Source: Prosthecobacter sp. (GTDB lineage: Bacteria; Verrucomicrobiota; Verrucomicrobiia; Verrucomicrobiales; Verrucomicrobiaceae). Taken from it: 48,353 nt of DNA. Below are positions 12,305 to 19,027 of the stretch, one piece after another (the stretch's first letter is position 1; each line of letters starts with the position of its first letter). Made by a program: the position numbers and the translations under genes. The notes beneath the pieces were generated by a model. The model had not been told where the DNA came from. It saw only the letters and a list, made by a program, of their open reading frames with translations, and made no database searches. Where the stretch lies: contig NZ_JAQSEA010000121.1 in the NCBI RefSeq assembly GCF_029946185.1, positions 1 to 48,353 on the forward strand. Direction: 5' to 3'.

Positions 12305-13909
12305 TCACGTCCTCAACTGATCCCAGCTCAGTTTAAAGCGCGCCAGATACTTCTTCAGCCGATCCGCATCGTTCATCTTCGAACGCTTGGCCCGCGAAAC
12401 CGCGAACAGCTTGCGTCCGGCATCCGAGAGCGTCTTGCTTTCTCGACAGACCTGCAAAACAAAGTCGAGCTGAGCCAGATCAAACGGATCAATCTCCGCT
12501 CTCTGTGCCTCCGTCAGCACCGCGCATTCTCCGCCTGATGCTGAAGCACCAGCATCCCGCCATCCTTCGCGCAAACGTGCAGCCTCCGTCTCCACGCACC
12601 CCACCGTGATTCTCCCCTTCGGGGCCAGCGTCGCCATGCGCGTCACCGCCGCATTCAGGTCGCGGAAATTGGCGCTCCATTTCGCTTCGGGACTGCGCGC
12701 AAATTTGAGGAAGGCCTCGCGCGCCTCCTTGTTCATGCGCACCTGCCGCCGATGCGACTTAGCATAACGATCCAACTCGAAATCAAGGTTCGCAGCAATG
12801 TCTTCGCGGCGCTCGGCGAGACTCGGCAGCGTGAAAGTCCATAGGTTGATGCGCGCGAGCAAATCATCGCGAAATTTCCCATGAGCCACCTGCACCCGCA
12901 GATCACGATTCGTTCCCGCGATGAGTTGAAAGTCACTCTGCACAGCCTTGTCAGCGCCCAGCGGCAGGAAGGTCTTGTCTTCGAGCGCCCGCAGCAGCAT
13001 CGCCTGCTCATCCAGTCCCAGCTCGCCGATCTCATCCAGAAAAATCAGCCCCTTGTCCGCCTCCTTCAGCAGTCCCGGCCTGTCCGACTGCGCCCCCGTG
13101 AATGATCCGCGCTTATGACCAAACAACGCCGACATCGCCTGATCTCCACGCAGTGTGGCGCAGTTCACTTCAACGAATTTGCCGCTGAGGCCAGCGCGTG
13201 ACCGCCGCAGATCGTAGATGCGGCTGCCCAGCATGGATTTGCCCGCACCCGTCGGCCCCATGATGAGAATGGGAGCCTTCGAATTGACCGCCACAAGTTC
13301 GATCTGCTCGATCAGCTTGTTGAAGCCCTTGCTTTTCGTGGCGATGCCGCTCTTCAGGAAATCCAGCGTGCGCTCCTGCTCCTGCGCAAAGCGCGTGGAG
13401 AGCCGGTCATACTTCGACAGATCAAGATCAATGATCTCATAGCGCCCCGACGCCTTCGCATCGCGTCCGCCTTCGCGTGAGGGCGAAGTTTGCAGCAGCC
13501 GTGCCGGGATGAAGTTCGCCTCATTCAGCAGGAACCAGCAGATCTGCGCCACATGCGTTCCCGTCGTGAGATGGATCAAGTAGTCCGCCCTCTCCGGATC
13601 AAAGCTGTAGCCACGCACGAAATCATAGAGCCGTTCATACACCTCCTGCAAATCCCACGGATCCTTCAGCGCAAACTCATGCACCACCACCTCTGTTTCA
13701 GGCGACACCTTCTTGATGTCCGCTTTCACCTGCCGCGCCAGATCCGCAAACTTCGGCTCCGCCAGCAGTTCCAGCCGCGCAATCAGCAAATCCTCCTGCT
13801 GACACATCGCCACCGTAGGCCGCCATTTGGACCATCGTTCCGGCCCCGCCGCACGATCCAAGTTCGATCCGAGGAATCCAAAGACTGTGGTTGGGTTGCT
13901 GGCTGGCAT
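12305..13909 (-). CDS. rtcR: RtcR, sigma-54-dependent activator of RNA repair genes
   Basis: A 534-residue bacterial enhancer-binding protein. The start at 13909 (MPASNPTTVFGFLGSNLDRAAG) matches the RtcR-family opening; an upstream in-frame Met at 13981 would add an unlikely hydrophobic stretch. Residues ~1-185 form the N-terminal CARF-like sensor (VFGFLGSNLD...RWSKWRPTVAM; HLTTGTHVAQICWFLL). The AAA+ core has Walker A GPTGAGKSMLG, the sigma-54 contact loop GSFTGAQ, Walker B GLIFLDEIGEL, and sensor and Arg-finger residues in FRDDLLARINLW. A C-terminal HTH region ends the protein. In E. coli and Salmonella RtcR is turned on by damaged-tRNA ends and drives rtcBA. Here it faces a sigma-54 promoter at 14049-14064, so the arrangement is conserved. 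Confidence 0.95.
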   Translation of the reverse strand: MPASNPTTVFGFLGSNLDRAAGPERWSKWRPTVAMCQQEDLLIARLELLAEPKFADLARQVKADIKKVSPETEVVVHEFALKDPWDLQEVYERLYDFVRGYSFDPERADYLIHLTTGTHVAQICWFLLNEANFIPARLLQTSPSREGGRDAKASGRYEIIDLDLSKYDRLSTRFAQEQERTLDFLKSGIATKSKGFNKLIEQIELVAVNSKAPILIMGPTGAGKSMLGSRIYDLRRSRAGLSGKFVEVNCATLRGDQAMSALFGHKRGSFTGAQSDRPGLLKEADKGLIFLDEIGELGLDEQAMLLRALEDKTFLPLGADKAVQSDFQLIAGTNRDLRVQVAHGKFRDDLLARINLWTFTLPSLAERREDIAANLDFELDRYAKSHRRQVRMNKEAREAFLKFARSPEAKWSANFRDLNAAVTRMATLAPKGRITVGCVETEAARLREGWRDAGASASGGECAVLTEAQRAEIDPFDLAQLDFVLQVCRESKTLSDAGRKLFAVSRAKRSKMNDADRLKKYLARFKLSWDQLRT

Positions 13910-13912
13910 TAC

Positions 13913-13937
13913 GGATAAATAACTATCCAAAAGGATA
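13913..13937. promoter_or_regulatory. Interlocking inverted repeats upstream of rtcR
   Basis: The order GGATA (13913-13917), TATCC (13924-13928), GGATA (13933-13937) gives two overlapping inverted repeats, spaced by 6 and 4 bases. They lie 4 to 28 bases before the rtcR start, in an AT-rich stretch, and about 110-135 bases upstream of the sigma-54 promoter on the other strand. That is a normal distance for an activator upstream site, and it would also permit autoregulation. Assignment to RtcR is inference. Confidence 0.4.
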
Positions 13938-13956
13938 AAATAAAGCAAAAATATCA

Positions 13957-13984
13957 AGTGTGGCGAACATCGATAAAACACACT
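13957..13984. promoter_or_regulatory. Inverted repeat AGTGTG-n16-CACACT, possible RtcR upstream site
   Basis: AGTGTG at 13957-13962 and CACACT at 13979-13984 are exact inverted 6-mers separated by 16 bases (centre to centre 22 bases, two helical turns). The site lies 65-92 bases upstream of the sigma-54 promoter, a usual place for an enhancer-binding protein dimer. Which of this and the GGATA/TATCC repeats binds RtcR, if either, cannot be decided from one sequence. Confidence 0.4.
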
Positions 13985-14048
13985 AAATTTTTTCTTTCCC
14001 TGATTCTACAAGGCTTCCAGCCTCATCAGCCCCTCCCGTGCCAGGTAT

Positions 14049-14064
14049 TGGCACGCCACTAGCA
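14049..14064 (+). promoter_or_regulatory. Sigma-54 promoter of the rtc operon
   Basis: TGGCACGCCACTAGCA matches the sigma-54 consensus TGGCACG-N4-TTGCW at all fixed positions except one (TAGC for TTGC). The GG (-24) and GC (-12) doublets have the right spacing. Transcription should start near 14075, leaving a leader of about 310 bases before the slipin ATG at 14387. It points away from rtcR into the slipin-rtcB genes, exactly as expected for an RtcR-activated promoter. Confidence 0.85.
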
Positions 14065-14085
14065 TTAGTATATCCCGTTCTCCAA

Positions 14086-14192
14086 CTCCATGCGGTGACC
14101 AGCGGCGATGTGCCAATGGGAGCTGCGCATCGGTGAGGAGGGCGATCCTCTGGTAAAGGACTAACATCCTGGGGTTCGATCCCCCATTTTTT
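14086..14192 (+). ncRNA. tRNA-like (Y-RNA-like) RNA in the rtc leader
   Basis: A perfect T-arm is present: stem TGGGG (14170-14174) with CCCCA (14182-14186) around the 7-base loop TTCGATC, which has the TTCRA signature of a TpsiC loop. Upstream, TCCT (14146-14149) pairs with AGGA (14157-14160) around CTGGTAA, a D-arm-like hairpin containing GG. A mutually exclusive alternative pairs GAGGA (14135-14139) with TCCTC (14146-14150), and AGGA (14157-14160) with TCCT (14167-14170). An 8-bp helix (14106-14113 with 14125-14132, one G-U) precedes these. There is no acceptor stem or normal anticodon arm, and six T follow the T-arm (14187-14192), so it is not an ordinary tRNA. Bacterial Y RNAs that mimic tRNA are known in rtc operons; this is a candidate of that kind, but no Ro-binding motif was confirmed. 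Confidence 0.6.
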
Positions 14193-14195
14193 CTT

Positions 14196-14342
14196 CCCGG
14201 ATGGCCGGGGTGAACGCCTGCCGTGAAAGCGGTGGGCGGACACAACGGCTCGGTGACTTTGCGAGCTGTCAGGCACTCGCGGCGAAGGCCGCCGCGAGCG
14301 GGCAGCCAGGCAGTTCCCGTCATCAGCCGCCAGCCATCCGGG
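14196..14342 (+). ncRNA. Multi-branched structured RNA domain in the rtc leader
   Basis: CCCGGATGGC (14196-14205) is the exact reverse complement of GCCATCCGGG (14333-14342), giving a 10-bp closing helix. Inside it are three strong hairpins. The first pairs 14215-14223 with 14230-14238 (9 bp, two G-U) around TGAAAG. The second pairs 14245-14252 with 14262-14269 (8 bp, one G-U). The third pairs 14276-14284 with 14290-14298 (9 bp, perfect). A weaker CGGG/CCCG pair (14299-14302 with 14316-14319) may form a fourth. The domain ends 44 bases before the slipin start. It could be a second small RNA, a processed leader, or a translation control element; no known family was recognised. Reading through it as an N-terminal extension of slipin (ATG 14201) is unlikely. 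Confidence 0.5.
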
Positions 14343-14386
14343 CGGGAATCATTTTTCAAAACCAACACACATCCATCCCAATCTCG

Positions 14387-15115
14387 ATGACCTCTTTCAT
14401 CACCATCTTTCAACCCGCTCCTAGTTTCAGCTTCGTGATTCATGATCACGAAATCGCCCTGCATTTTCGCAACGGCTCCCACCTCGGCGTGCTTACTTCG
14501 GGCAAGCATCGCTTCTGGACCGCTGGGCATGAGGTGAAGCGCGTGGATACCCGCGAACAGATGATCCTCATCCAAGGCCAGGAACTCCTCACCGCCGATC
14601 AGGTTGCGGTGAAACTCAGCGTCGTCGCCGTGTATCGCGTGGCGGATGCGCTGACCATGCACCGCGCCTCCGCTGATCCTTTGGCGGTGCTCTATGTCGA
14701 AATCCAGCTCGCCCTGCGCCAAATCGTCGCCGCTGAAAATGCCGAGGCCTTTCTCCAGCTGAAAAGTGGACACGGGGCCAGGCTCCTGCCGCTCATCGCA
14801 GATCGCGCCGCTGCACTCGGTCTCAAAGTGGACCGTATCGATATCCGCGATGTCATGCTCCCCGCCGAACTGAAGCGCAGCTACATGGCCGTGCTTCAGC
14901 AGCGCCAGGAATCCAGCGCCGTGCTCGAAAAAGCCCGCTCCGAAACCGCCGCCCTCCGCAGCCTCGCCAACGCCGCCAAACTCATGCGCGACAACCCCGA
15001 ACTCCTCTCGCTCCGTTACCTGCAAACGATTCAGGAAATCGGAACCAGTGTCGGCAACACGCTGGTGCTGGGGCTGACCGATAGCGAGAAGCTGCATGCT
15101 GCAATGAAGTCGTAA
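14387..15115 (+). CDS. Slipin / SPFH (band 7) domain protein of the rtc operon
   Basis: A 242-residue SPFH-domain protein. The start at 14387 (MTSFITIFQPAPSFSF) is chosen because the 62 codons upstream fall in the structured RNA and look non-coding. SPFH features are VIHDHEIALHFRNGSHLGVLTSGKHRFW, KRVDTREQMILIQGQELLTADQVAVKLSVVAVYRV and LGLKVDRIDIRDVMLPAELK, followed by a helical region (YMAVLQQRQESSAVLEKARSE) and LRYLQTIQEIG. No obvious transmembrane helix is present, so it may be soluble or peripheral. Slipin-like genes recur in bacterial rtc operons, but their role in RNA repair is not known. Being first after the sigma-54 promoter, it is probably induced with rtcB. Confidence 0.88.
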   Translation: MTSFITIFQPAPSFSFVIHDHEIALHFRNGSHLGVLTSGKHRFWTAGHEVKRVDTREQMILIQGQELLTADQVAVKLSVVAVYRVADALTMHRASADPLAVLYVEIQLALRQIVAAENAEAFLQLKSGHGARLLPLIADRAAALGLKVDRIDIRDVMLPAELKRSYMAVLQQRQESSAVLEKARSETAALRSLANAAKLMRDNPELLSLRYLQTIQEIGTSVGNTLVLGLTDSEKLHAAMKS

Positions 15116-15176: not shown

Positions 15177-16667
15177 ATGTCCACCTCACCATTCCACATC
15201 ACCGCCGAAGCTGAAGCCATCCTGCCTGCCCGCAACAACGCCGGTAAACCGATCACCGTGATCGGTACCGAGGCCATCCGTTCTGGCTTTGACGCCTCCT
15301 GCATCGAGCAGGCGCTCAACTCGCGCTCGGCTCCGGGCGTGACAGATCTCGTGCTCAATCCCGACGCGCACTCCGGTTACGGCGCACCGGTCGGCTGCGT
15401 GATGGTTTCGCCAACCCACATCTATCCAGGCCCGGTCGGCGTGGACATCAAGTGCTCCATGTCGCTGCTGCAGATGAACATCCCTGCCGACGCGATCATG
15501 GACAAAGCGATCCGCCGCCAGCTCATCGACGCCATTTTAACACGTACTCCCACCGGCGCAGGCCGTGGCCAGCGCGAGGCGAAAAAATCGCGCCGCGTGT
15601 CCGTCGATCTCGGTGTGCAGGTGTGCACCGAAGGCGCAAGCAAGAGTGTGTGCGAAGCACTCGGCATCCCGCCGGAGTGGGCGCTTCGCTGCGAAGACAG
15701 CGCGCACCTCGGCCACGATGGCAACGTCTCCACGCTGCACGAGCGTCTGGAAAAAATGCGCTCGTTCAACGGCTTCGCCGGATTTGAAAACAAGATGATG
15801 CAACTCGGCTCCTACGGCGGTGGCAACCACTTCGGTGAGTGCGAGATCGTGCAGCTTGCCGATGACGCCGCCATGCGTTCCACCGCCGAAGTTTTCGGTC
15901 TGCGCGACAATCACGTCGCCTTCTTGAGCCACTGCGGATCACGCGGGTTCGGAAACATCCTGGCGCAGCGTCAGTTCAAGGCGCTGGAAGGTTTCTTCCG
16001 CACCTGGGGACTGTCCTTTCCTGCCGATGACAAACAGCTCGTCTATGCACCGCTCGGAACTCCCGAGGCGGACGCGTATCTCGATGACATGGCGCTCGGG
16101 GCGAACTTCGCCACCGTGAACCACATGCTCATCAATGCCCTCGTGCTGGAAGCCTTCCAAGAAGTGCTGCCAGGGACGACGGGTGAGCTCGTGTACTTCA
16201 TCAGCCACAACATCGCTCGTCAGGAAGTGGTCGATAACCAGCTCGCCTGGGTCCACCGAAAGGGCGCCACTCGTGCCTTCCCCGGTGGGCACCACGCCCT
16301 CAAAGACACCCCTTTCGCCAACACCGGTCACCCCATCCTCCTGCCCGGAAATCCGCGCGATGGCTCCGTGATCATGGTCGCGAAACCCGATGCCGTGAAA
16401 AGCTGCTACAGCGTGAACCACGGTGCCGGCCGCTGCATGGGTCGCAAAGCCGCGGCTCGTACGCTCGATCAAAAGAGTGTCGATGCCGACTTCGAAACCC
16501 ACGACATCCTCTACAATGCCCGCCAATACCCAATCGACGAAGCCCCCAACGCCTACAAGGATTTCAAAGAAGTCCTCCGCAGCGTCGAAGCCGCCGGTCT
16601 CGCCCAGCAGGTCTGCAAACTCAAAGCCCGCTTTGTCATCAAAGACGCAGCGGAGGCGGATGATTGA
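15177..16667 (+). CDS. rtcB: RtcB RNA-splicing ligase
   Basis: A 496-residue RtcB family ligase. The start at 15177 (MSTSPFHITAEAEAILPA) is chosen because upstream in-frame residues are atypical. Metal and active-site motifs in order are NPDAHSGYGAPVGCV, GVDIKCSM (Asp90, Cys93 as Mn ligands), GGGNHFGE, FLSHCGSRGFG, ISHNIARQE, and SVNHGAGRCMGRKAA, where His415 is the expected guanylylation site. RtcB joins RNA 3'-phosphate or 2',3'-cyclic phosphate to 5'-OH ends using GTP and Mn. The metal loop reads GVDIKCSM instead of the common GVDIGCGM, indicating a distinct clade. It starts 61 bases after slipin. Confidence 0.96.
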   Translation: MSTSPFHITAEAEAILPARNNAGKPITVIGTEAIRSGFDASCIEQALNSRSAPGVTDLVLNPDAHSGYGAPVGCVMVSPTHIYPGPVGVDIKCSMSLLQMNIPADAIMDKAIRRQLIDAILTRTPTGAGRGQREAKKSRRVSVDLGVQVCTEGASKSVCEALGIPPEWALRCEDSAHLGHDGNVSTLHERLEKMRSFNGFAGFENKMMQLGSYGGGNHFGECEIVQLADDAAMRSTAEVFGLRDNHVAFLSHCGSRGFGNILAQRQFKALEGFFRTWGLSFPADDKQLVYAPLGTPEADAYLDDMALGANFATVNHMLINALVLEAFQEVLPGTTGELVYFISHNIARQEVVDNQLAWVHRKGATRAFPGGHHALKDTPFANTGHPILLPGNPRDGSVIMVAKPDAVKSCYSVNHGAGRCMGRKAAARTLDQKSVDADFETHDILYNARQYPIDEAPNAYKDFKEVLRSVEAAGLAQQVCKLKARFVIKDAAEADD

Positions 16668-16693: not shown

Positions 16694-17278
16694 ATGAACG
16701 CAACCGACTTCAAGAATCATATCACTAAAATCAGACCTGGGGATGCGATTGCCAGCATTACTCCCCAACGTAACTTTAACATCCTGGCGTACTCCTATGG
16801 CGAAGCTGCGGAAATGCTGTCGAAGCACATTGGTGAAGAAGGGTTTTATAAAGACCTCGCTATACATCCAATCTGCTTCTTGTATCGCCACTCGCTCGAA
16901 TTGAGCTTCAAGCAAATTGTTTGGGATGGACGTCGGCTACTTGGAGAAAAAGCAAGGGTAGAGGAGTTGTGTCGAAGCCATGAAATCCAATCACTCTGGA
17001 CTGAAATTGAAGCCATTATGAATGCTGTGTGGCCTGAACTGCCATTCCCCGAAGCGGCACTAATACTACGGGAAGTTGTAGCTTGGTTTCATGGGGCAGA
17101 TCCAGGCAGTCTTGCCTTTCGGTATCCTTTTGATAAGAAACTTCAGGGTAATTTGACTGAACTCAGCCATATCAATCTGTCCACACTTGTGGAGGCGATG
17201 GAGATCTCGACGCGCTTTCTTGGGGGAGTGGCAAGCGCGGTGAGCGAATACTTGTCGGCGCAGCGAAATACTTGGTGA
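16694..17278 (+). CDS. Unknown helical protein between rtcB and rtcA (possibly HEPN-like)
   Basis: A 194-residue, largely helical protein, 26 bases after rtcB on the same strand. I do not recognise the family with confidence. Segments such as ICFLYRHSLELSFKQIVW (Arg65-His66) and CRSHEIQSLWTEIEAIM resemble small helical HEPN-like domains, some of which are RNases, but the canonical Rx4-6H motif is not clear. Its base composition is visibly more AT-rich than rtcB and rtcA, which suggests recent acquisition. The stop at 17278 directly abuts the stop of the convergent kinase-like gene. Position implies expression with rtcB; a role as RNase, toxin or RNA-repair accessory is speculation. Confidence 0.65.
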   Translation: MNATDFKNHITKIRPGDAIASITPQRNFNILAYSYGEAAEMLSKHIGEEGFYKDLAIHPICFLYRHSLELSFKQIVWDGRRLLGEKARVEELCRSHEIQSLWTEIEAIMNAVWPELPFPEAALILREVVAWFHGADPGSLAFRYPFDKKLQGNLTELSHINLSTLVEAMEISTRFLGGVASAVSEYLSAQRNTW

Positions 17279-18001: not shown

Positions 18002-19027
18002 ATGAAATCTTCCCCCACACTCCAAATTTCCGGCGACTCCGGTGGTGGGCAACTCCTGCGCTCATCACTCTCCTTGGCGCTTATCACCGGACAGACGTTT
18101 CGCATGACCAACATCCGAGGCAAGCGCCCGAAGCCGGGCCTGATGCGTCAGCATCTCACCTGCGTGAAGGCAGCGGCAGAAGTTTGCGGCGCAAGCGTCG
18201 ATGGTGCTGAACTCGGCTCGGTGGAACTCGTCTTCAGCCCCGGCAAAATCATGGGCGGAGATTACTCCTTCGCCATCGGTTCAGGCGGCAGCACCACTCT
18301 CGTGTTGCAGACCCTGCTCCCTGCTTTGCTGCACGCCAATGGCGCGAGCAAGGTCCGCATCGAAGGCGGCACACACAATCCCATGGCACCTCCGTTCGAG
18401 TTCATCGAGCAATGCTATCTGCCGGTGATTCAACGCATGGGCGTGCAGGCCACGGCGTCCCTAGAGCGTCATGGATTCATGCAAGCAGGCGGCGGCGTGA
18501 TCACAGCGAAAATTGATCCCATCAAGAAATGGAAGAAGCTGAAACTCATCGAGCGCGGCGAAGCTGTGGAGACGTTTGGGCGTGTTCTCCATGCGCATCT
18601 GCATCGAGACATCGCGGAGCGTGAAATCAGCGTGGCCTCCCAAATCTTGGAGTGGCCGGTGAACCAAATCGAACTCCGCTATGCAAATGACAGCTCCGGC
18701 CCGGGCAATACGATTCTGCTGGGGGCGCGTTTTGCCAACGTGTGTGAAATCAGCAGTGGCATCGCGCAGATGGGGAAGTCCGCAGAAAGCGTGGCGACCG
18801 GCGCGGCGAAAGGCCTGCGTTCCTACCTCGCCTCGCCTGCACCCGTGGGCGCACACCTCGCGGATCAACTGCTGCTGCCAATGGCCCTGGCAGGAGGTGG
18901 CGTGTTTCACACACTGTCGATCACCGATCACTCCCGAACGAACATGGCACTAATCGAGCAATTCCTGCCGGTGAAGTTCACCGTGGAGGAACTGGAGCCG
19001 GGGGTAAAACAACTCCGCTGCAACTGA
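18002..19027 (+). CDS. rtcA: RNA 3'-terminal phosphate cyclase RtcA
   Basis: A 341-residue RtcA. Motifs are ISGDSGGGQLLRSSLSLALITG near the start, RPKPGLMRQHLTCVKAAAEV, the central FAIGSGGSTTLVLQTLLPALL, EGGTHNPMAPPFEFIE, and ITDHSRTNMALIEQFLP, where His310 corresponds to the nucleotidylated His of E. coli RtcA (His309). It converts RNA 3'-phosphate to 2',3'-cyclic phosphate through RNA-AMP and can also adenylylate 5'-phosphate ends. It usually follows rtcB; here two inserted genes, one antisense, lie between, so it may rely on its own promoter in 17965-18001 or on read-through. Confidence 0.95.
   Translation: MKSSPTLQISGDSGGGQLLRSSLSLALITGQTFRMTNIRGKRPKPGLMRQHLTCVKAAAEVCGASVDGAELGSVELVFSPGKIMGGDYSFAIGSGGSTTLVLQTLLPALLHANGASKVRIEGGTHNPMAPPFEFIEQCYLPVIQRMGVQATASLERHGFMQAGGGVITAKIDPIKKWKKLKLIERGEAVETFGRVLHAHLHRDIAEREISVASQILEWPVNQIELRYANDSSGPGNTILLGARFANVCEISSGIAQMGKSAESVATGAAKGLRSYLASPAPVGAHLADQLLLPMALAGGGVFHTLSITDHSRTNMALIEQFLPVKFTVEELEPGVKQLRCN

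Follow-up and report, generated by a model that had tools for sequence, protein, structure and literature searches.

A structured leader RNA with a tRNA-like segment precedes slipin in RtcR-linked RNA-repair operons

We analyzed a 48,353-nucleotide stretch of DNA from Prosthecobacter sp. (contig NZ_JAQSEA010000121.1; hereafter the window), which contains an RNA-repair locus with genes for RtcR, slipin, RtcB and RtcA (Table 1). The RtcR product matched the NCBIfam RNA_repair_RtcR family above its cut-off (5.8e-237); its open frame opens with GTG at 13981, and homology begins approximately 30 codons inside. Slipin, rtcB, a 194-residue protein (16694-17278, between rtcB and rtcA) and rtcA run divergently from rtcR, and a kinase-like gene on the reverse strand sits between rtcB and rtcA, just ahead of rtcA. 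The 194-residue protein had no match in Pfam, NCBIfam or PADLOC. An earlier reading made from the letters of this DNA (hereafter the sequence-only reading) found no Ro gene in the window. Because the TROVE profile (PF05731) is weak in this clade, in which a known Ro protein scores 21.2 against a cut-off of 23, the Ro search was repeated with a clade-specific Ro protein as query. Neither the profile nor the protein search found Ro in the whole genome (95.86% complete), which extends the earlier claim beyond the window.

Table 1. Genes and leader elements of the RNA-repair locus, in window coordinates.
Feature	Position	Strand	Evidence
rtcR, σ54 activator for RNA repair	12305-13981	-	PF06956, 7.1e-80; Sigma54_activat, 6e-48
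σ54 promoter, TGGCACG-N4-TAGCA (TGGCACGCCACTAGCA)	14049-14064	+	1 mismatch from the consensus used
Domain I, long stem with inner hairpin (GGCGATGTGCC)	14079-14141	+	Alignment A5, helices 1-4
GGTAA, proposed D-loop	14152-14156	+	Letters present, no conserved stem
tRNA T-arm, TGGGG-TTCGATC-CCCCA, 5 bp, loop TTCRANY	14170-14186	+	Pattern match
Domain III, closing stem with two arms	14192-14344	+	Alignment A5, helices 5-12
slipin (SPFH/Band 7 protein), first gene past the leader	14387-15115	+	PF01145, 5.1e-25
rtcB, RNA ligase	15180-16667	+	PF01139, 1.6e-99
rtcA, RNA 3'-phosphate cyclase	18002-19027	+	PF01137, 1.3e-76

Ahead of slipin, and pointing away from RtcR, is a σ54 promoter. It had been described as near-perfect, in agreement with its single mismatch and with a core that is invariant, save for one base, across nine leaders of the same genus. 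Two σ54 sites were found in the 48 kb against 0.52 expected, so that the window promoter alone is not above chance. From the promoter spacing, transcription is expected to start at approximately 14074-14076. Within the order to which the window belongs, a σ54-type site was present ahead of slipin in 15 (strict pattern) or all 16 (loose pattern) of the 16 loci in which slipin is the first gene. The same patterns occurred in 7/42 (strict) and 17/42 (loose) Ro-first loci and in 1/12 and 3/12 RtcB-first loci, and a recount over loci of the family gave 25 of 30. The idea that one promoter pattern serves most RtcR loci was dropped, given the 7-17 matches among the 42 Ro-first loci; for this reason, the short Ro-first and RtcB-first leaders were judged by the distance between RtcR and the gene.

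The 144-nt segment described by the sequence-only reading (14049-14192) is the first half of a larger structured leader of approximately 270 nt, and the two structured domains that flank the tRNA-like segment had gone unremarked. The leader consists of domain I, the tRNA-like segment and domain III, in this order, and ends about 43 nt short of the slipin start. Of 68 genomes searched in the family, nine had a blastn match to 14040-14390, its own among them, and all nine belong to the window's genus. These nine leaders align in register, with strong conservation of the promoter core, the 5' domain and the 3' domain. We folded them together with one sequence from another genus (alignment A5, 10 sequences). 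The consensus fold had 63 pairs, 16 of which showed two-sided changes: four in helices 1 and 3 of domain I and 12 in domain III. None of 500 shuffles reached the observed values on any of five measures, a test that relatedness may inflate; slid controls, which preserve relatedness, gave 1-5 two-sided pairs. The folding energy of the whole leader (14075-14390) was low (z = -4.8), and shorter pieces were unremarkable (z = -0.62 for a 126-nt segment and +0.54 for a 48-nt segment). Because the 126-nt segment alone folds unremarkably, the case stands on conservation and on the fold of the whole leader, which is a conserved multi-domain RNA. Rfam recognized no family in it at the gathering cut-off. 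At E<=10, the region 13900-14500 gave weak matches to unrelated families and none to the tRNA or Y RNA (YrlA) models with which the sequence-only reading had proposed to search.

Within the tRNA-like segment, the 5-bp T-arm around TTCGATC was confirmed exactly as read earlier. The sequence GGGGTTCGANYCCCC has one exact match in the window (0.53 are expected when two mismatches are allowed), and the arm is followed by a run of T residues (TTTTTT) that occurs in none of eight same-genus relatives. Among the nine leaders of the genus, the loop is TTCGATC in the window and TGCGAAT or TGCGATT in five, and the T-arm is missing in three; it is therefore dispensable in this genus. Domains I and III, in contrast, persist and covary. 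The D-arm-like hairpin of the sequence-only reading was not confirmed, as folding favored a different hairpin in this region, no D-stem conservation could be seen by eye across the slipin leaders of the order, and the part that recurs is the letters GGTAA. ARAGORN found no tRNA gene in the window and recognized neither an acceptor stem nor an anticodon arm, the absence of which had been noted before and also agrees with the Rfam result.

We further compared 17 slipin leaders across the order. Six carry a TTCRA arm of 4 bp or longer (L028, L054, L075, L084, L111 and L115), five a TGCGA arm (L002-L005 and L008) and two from another genus a GNRA hairpin instead of the T-arm (L112 and L113); no T-arm was present in three (L009, L122 and L123). 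In L116, TTCGA with 3 bp was seen by eye, and the contig ends before any slipin. The operons of L112 and L113, whose slipin leaders have a GNRA tetraloop in place of the T-loop, contain both slipin and Ro. GGTAA was found in 5 of the 17 (L028, L075, L084, L111 and L115), and the TGCGA group has AGTAA or AGTAGA. Taken as positions 18 and 55, the exchange of GGTAA/TTCGA for AGTAA/TGCGA is suggestive but probably happened only once.

RtcR was found in 106 of 386 sampled genomes of the order. We classed 87 RtcR-adjoining stretches, 80 of which had a first gene (these counts are over related genomes); no gene was obtained in the other seven (L064, L083, L092, L104, L108, L110 and L116). Slipin was first in 16 loci, at a median of 484.5 nt from the RtcR match; the corresponding figures were 42 loci and 204 nt for Ro, 12 loci and 225 nt for RtcB, and five loci and 298 nt for RtcA, and in five of the 80 the first gene was far away. 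A T-arm (TTCRA, at least 4 bp, interval up to 500 nt) was detected in 6/16 slipin-first and 1/42 Ro-first loci, and in 0/12, 0/5 and 0/5 loci with RtcB, RtcA and a far gene, respectively. Thus, in the window's order the leader precedes slipin and not Ro. The suggestion that it represents a Ro-independent version is supported by 12 of the 17 genomes with slipin leaders, in which a Ro protein search found no Ro, and not by the other five: Ro was in the same operon in two (G064 and G065), and a distant Ro-like protein was encoded elsewhere in three (G004, G024 and G050).

In Ro loci of the order (among L044-L121), T-arm RNAs were located after Ro, mostly between Ro and RtcB, with up to six in one locus (L067). 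Examples, in the RtcR-left orientation, are L044:2077, 2219 and 2358, and others were seen in L049, L063, L067 and L069. The YrlA cut-off was passed by two RNAs in L044 and by two on the other strand in L117; no YrlA was detected at gathering in L112 and L120. At L089:431 (RtcR-left), a T-arm followed by GTAGCTCAGATGGTAGAGC, the order of YrlA, is located in an operon leader, and this operon has RtcB and no hit to Ro or slipin.

Searching plasmid records by tblastn, we found rtcR adjoining slipin in Citrobacter and Burkholderia. The Citrobacter intergenic stretch contained the promoter and an arm of 4 bp (GTGGG-TTCGATT-CCCAA). Two Burkholderia leaders were called tRNA-??? by ARAGORN, one of which (L126) was above the Rfam tRNA cut-off, and a Photobacterium leader had two tandem units, one undefined and one tRNA-Met(cat). 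The slipin of Burkholderia stagnalis (L126:3050-4639, 530 aa) appeared by eye to have a duplicated N-terminal part.

A contig scan with a proteobacterial slipin query gave 538 confirmed loci, of which the best 80 were analyzed; the counts that follow are not independent, since these loci are relatives of one another and were chosen as the best of 538. A T-arm was present within 500 nt upstream of slipin in 72 of these best 80 of 538, at 185-424 nt before the gene, as compared with 58/4000 dinucleotide shuffles, 20/684 other windows of the same loci (some of these arms being tRNA arrays) and 0/80 on the reverse strand. Thus, the tRNA-like element that the sequence-only reading placed ahead of repair genes, behind a σ54/RtcR-type promoter and with no Ro, is recurrent. 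Five of the eight misses (L134, L137, L140, L144 and L146) had, by eye, GGGTTCGANTCCC on a shorter stem, and the other three (L156, L161 and L169) had no T-arm. Among the 110 arms there are 29 different stem sequences, and their outermost pair, which lay outside the selection, pairs in 96 of 110. As a control, 11 other slipins were hand-picked from the plasmid hits, and a T-arm was found with one (L212). The promoter pattern was present in 67 of the best 80 stretches. In these stretches, which reach up to 3 kb on each side, RtcR was found in 67 and Ro in none of the 80. Genes downstream of slipin included RtcB (59 of the best 80) and a nucleotidyltransferase (40), and an RtcB or RlaP-type gene was present on the same strand in 68; the E. 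coli protein was identified as RlaP by PF10127 (1.4e-96). PA4582 is probably the rtc-linked slipin.

Alignment of 19 enteric sequences (A7) revealed two-sided changes in 25 of 46 pairs, and none of 500 shuffles reached the observed measures. The A7 consensus predicted the T-arm unprompted and had the same three-part order as in the window's genus. By eye, the enteric domains I and III had no sequence likeness to those of the window, and what the two have in common is the order and the T-arm. The conservation that the sequence-only reading had made its test was found in part: by eye there is no conserved D-stem and the T-arm is missing in three of nine same-genus leaders, but it covaries across the wider family. 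We propose a family, the slipin-operon tRNA-like leader, in which a promoter, domain I, a tRNA-like segment and domain III are followed by slipin; this arrangement is found in the window, in relatives and in enteric leaders. Of 5426 complete E. coli genomes, 1620 carry the E. coli leader (L128) at a cover of 80% or more; in one example, the leader is followed by slipin and a nucleotidyltransferase gene, with yjbD on one side and a zeta-toxin family gene on the other. In E. coli L128 and L211, a slipin-RlaP operon has a σ54 site and a tRNA-like leader, and rtcR does not adjoin it. Slipin leaders L165, L174, L189 and L207 are downstream of arrays of ordinary tRNA genes.

Many proteobacterial leaders contain whole tRNA-like units. 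Among the best 80 of 538 loci, 40 had leaders with ARAGORN calls, which numbered 47 in total, one or two units in each and two in a row in seven loci. The anticodon was undefined (???) in 16 calls, and the other 31 were spread across 12 amino acids, with five tRNA-Met(cat). In eight Pseudomonas loci, seven of which had two cloverleaf-like units and one a single unit, the D- and T-arms were constant and the anticodon loops differed in length and letters. Leaders of 8 of 20 proteobacterial loci examined passed the Rfam tRNA cut-off (RF00005); apart from tRNA, no Rfam family, YrlA included, was detected at gathering in the leaders of these 20 loci. Since the anticodon is not conserved, the mimics are, judging from sequence, mostly not decoding tRNAs. 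Contrary to expectation, CCA stood at the offset typical of tRNA in 20 of 114 T-arms, genuine tRNA arrays included; its absence was therefore dropped as an argument against tRNA, and some mimics may be aminoacylated. Because ARAGORN labels some of the mimics as tRNA genes, genome annotations may do so too.

We lean towards the view that the window encodes a Ro-independent, RtcR-induced leader RNA that mimics tRNA and serves, next to slipin and the repair enzymes, as a decoy or scaffold. RtcR is described as activated by, and sensing, damaged tRNA (Hughes et al. 2020, PMC7790460), so the leader RNA would be made when tRNAs are broken, and in large amounts. It would then be cut from the mRNA, or fold free of it, and act in trans as a tRNA mimic, drawing tRNA-directed enzymes to slipin, RtcB, RtcA and RlaP. 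The enzymes drawn might be the nuclease that does the damage, or else repair enzymes and enzymes that bind the elbow. Leaders that keep the elbow and not the anticodon would suit a nuclease decoy or a repair-enzyme scaffold near slipin, and in Ro-less operons the leader could have a role similar to that proposed for Y RNAs in Ro operons. Within the genus of the window, the tRNA part appears to be reduced to the T-arm and in the course of being lost, so most of the function may here reside in domains I and III. Retention of domains I and III after loss of the tRNA part suggests that a slipin-side function resides in these domains and that the mimic is an added module. Mimicry of tRNA is not essential everywhere, because the T-arm is lost in the three same-genus leaders, in L112 and L113 and, by eye, in L156, L161 and L169. 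Two further points count against the preferred reading: the window T-arm lacks an acceptor stem, and some mimics of the wider family come close to real tRNAs, as with the five Met(cat) calls, the Photobacterium Met(cat) unit and the 20 T-arms with CCA.

The main rival, a minority possibility in our judgment, is a cis-regulatory leader whose fold governs how the slipin mRNA is translated, processed or kept stable, with the tRNA-like part admitting enzymes that process or bind tRNA and report its state. Position speaks for regulation in cis, as the leader is directly upstream of slipin in the examined loci and domain III stops about 43 nt (window) or a few tens of nt (enteric sequences) before the start codon; moreover, the core domains outlast the T-arm. 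However, in the consensus folds of both groups domain III leaves the start codon and the stretch just before it uncovered, and whole tRNA-like units, in tandem in 7 of the best 80 of 538 loci, exceed what a simple switch needs. Neither in the window leader nor, tRNA apart, in those of the 20 proteobacterial loci did Rfam recognize a riboswitch or any other family. It is improbable that the window T-arm is a vestige, or an intrinsic terminator or attenuator, in a family whose ancestor had a tRNA mimic. The hairpin with its T run does score as terminator-like, and the arm is changed or lost in eight of the nine same-genus leaders, but the T run is lacking in all eight aligned relatives, the window loop matches the tRNA consensus at all positions, and GGTAA with TTCGA is found again in other genera (L075, L084, L111 and L115). 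A conserved intrinsic terminator was rejected, since among these leaders the T run is confined to the window.

That the leaders hold ordinary tRNA genes, or tRNA remnants left by integration of mobile DNA, is very improbable. Such genes would account for the ARAGORN and Rfam tRNA calls in many leaders, for CCA at the tRNA offset, for the five Met(cat) calls and for the location of L165, L174, L189 and L207 after real tRNA arrays. They would not account for undefined anticodons in 16 of 47 calls and the scatter of the rest across 12 amino acids, for the many leaders with a T-arm alone, for placement at 185-424 nt before slipin in the 500-nt search or for the compensatory changes. Even less credible is that the region codes for an N-terminal extension of slipin starting at the in-frame ATG at 14201: relatives have indels of 1, 2 and 6 nt, of which the 1- and 2-nt ones break the frame and count against the extension, and the base pairing covaries.

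tRNA-like RNAs of RNA-repair operons have hitherto been tied to Ro and YrlA. The slipin leaders are a second class, which allows the purpose of such RNAs to be tested without Ro. They occur in named species of Pseudomonas, Burkholderia and other Enterobacterales and in E. coli, as well as in the window's order, and their presence in about three in ten of the searched E. coli genomes makes the purpose testable in a laboratory strain. If the preferred reading is true, the rtc-linked slipin would gain a candidate RNA partner.

Bacterial Y RNAs are a close comparison. YrlA Y RNAs (RF02553) and the slipin leader are both non-coding, with a tRNA-like module, an RNA-repair operon and an RtcR context. 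The YrlA module has a T-loop and a GG-containing D-loop, whereas the window has an exact T-arm and a D-stem that is not conserved. YrlA-type RNAs in Ro loci of the order form arrays after Ro and, by eye, have a permuted arrangement of T-arm, acceptor hairpin, D-arm and pairing stem; slipin leaders, in contrast, are first in the operon, carry either GGTAA ahead of the T-arm or complete tRNA-like units, and have two other domains on their flanks. The window RNA does not match YrlA at gathering or, in 13900-14500, at E<=10, and the Ro neighbor of YrlA was not found in this genome by profile or protein search. Kinship with Y RNAs, as proposed by the sequence-only reading, thus gained no support from YrlA or from domain I. 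In domain I, AGCGATATGCCCAAGGAAGCT resembled the Y RNA motif GGCGAATGCCCGAGGAACT by eye, and this candidate homology was rejected with a weight matrix built from 115 Y RNA motif windows: in 17 leaders scanned for the 5' stem motif that Y RNAs of the order's Ro loci show (GGCGAATGCC..ACTACAT), with 60 shuffles each, the best scores were equaled by 3-48 of the shuffles.

Comparison with tRNA itself (RF00005) separates the window, which keeps the T-arm only, from the proteobacterial leaders that pass the tRNA cut-off. A cloverleaf with a 7-bp acceptor and D-, anticodon and T-arms was seen by ARAGORN and Rfam in part of the wider family and not in the window, and the wider-family mimics differ from tRNA in their variable or wrong-sized anticodon loops. 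Structured RNAs share a general T-loop motif, a U(U/G)NRA loop. UUCGA of the window and UGCGA of five relatives fit it.

E. coli rtcBA and Salmonella rsr-yrlBA-rtcBA have RtcB, RtcA and RtcR activation by damaged tRNA in common with the window locus (PMC7790460). The tRNA-like domain of YrlA was proposed as a possible competitive inhibitor of a tRNA nuclease (Hughes et al. 2020, PMC7790460). The main text of that paper does not mention slipin, and its passages do not describe the slipin leader. In the literature searched, tRNA-like RNA and slipin were not found together, and an earlier description (Chen et al. 2014; Burroughs and Aravind 2016) is possible; the passages that pair RtcR with slipin are unrelated to the leader.

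The two classes may be linked by descent. At E<=1, leaders of 8 of 9 Pseudomonas, Photobacterium and betaproteobacterial loci gave YrlA matches of 26.5-36.6 bits, below the cut-off of 69; six Pseudomonas leaders scored 33-37 bits and a seventh 26.5. In another search, the leader of L159 scored 33.4 bits and seven other loci had no YrlA match, and real tRNA arrays and the L165 leader reached up to 26.3 bits. In L159, L162, L163, L168, L181 and L182, the sub-cut-off matches lie at or across the junction of the tandem mimics. One possible origin of the permuted YrlA module is the place where T-arm and D-arm adjoin in these tandem mimics, which we offer as a lead and not as proof of descent. In a broader proposal, to which we give slightly less than even credence, slipin leaders would be a widespread and hitherto undescribed class of RNAs, induced through RtcR and σ54 and bearing one or two non-decoding mimics, that are Ro-independent counterparts of Y RNAs and link membrane scaffolds of slipin to the sensing and repair of tRNA damage, with the YrlA module possibly derived from them.
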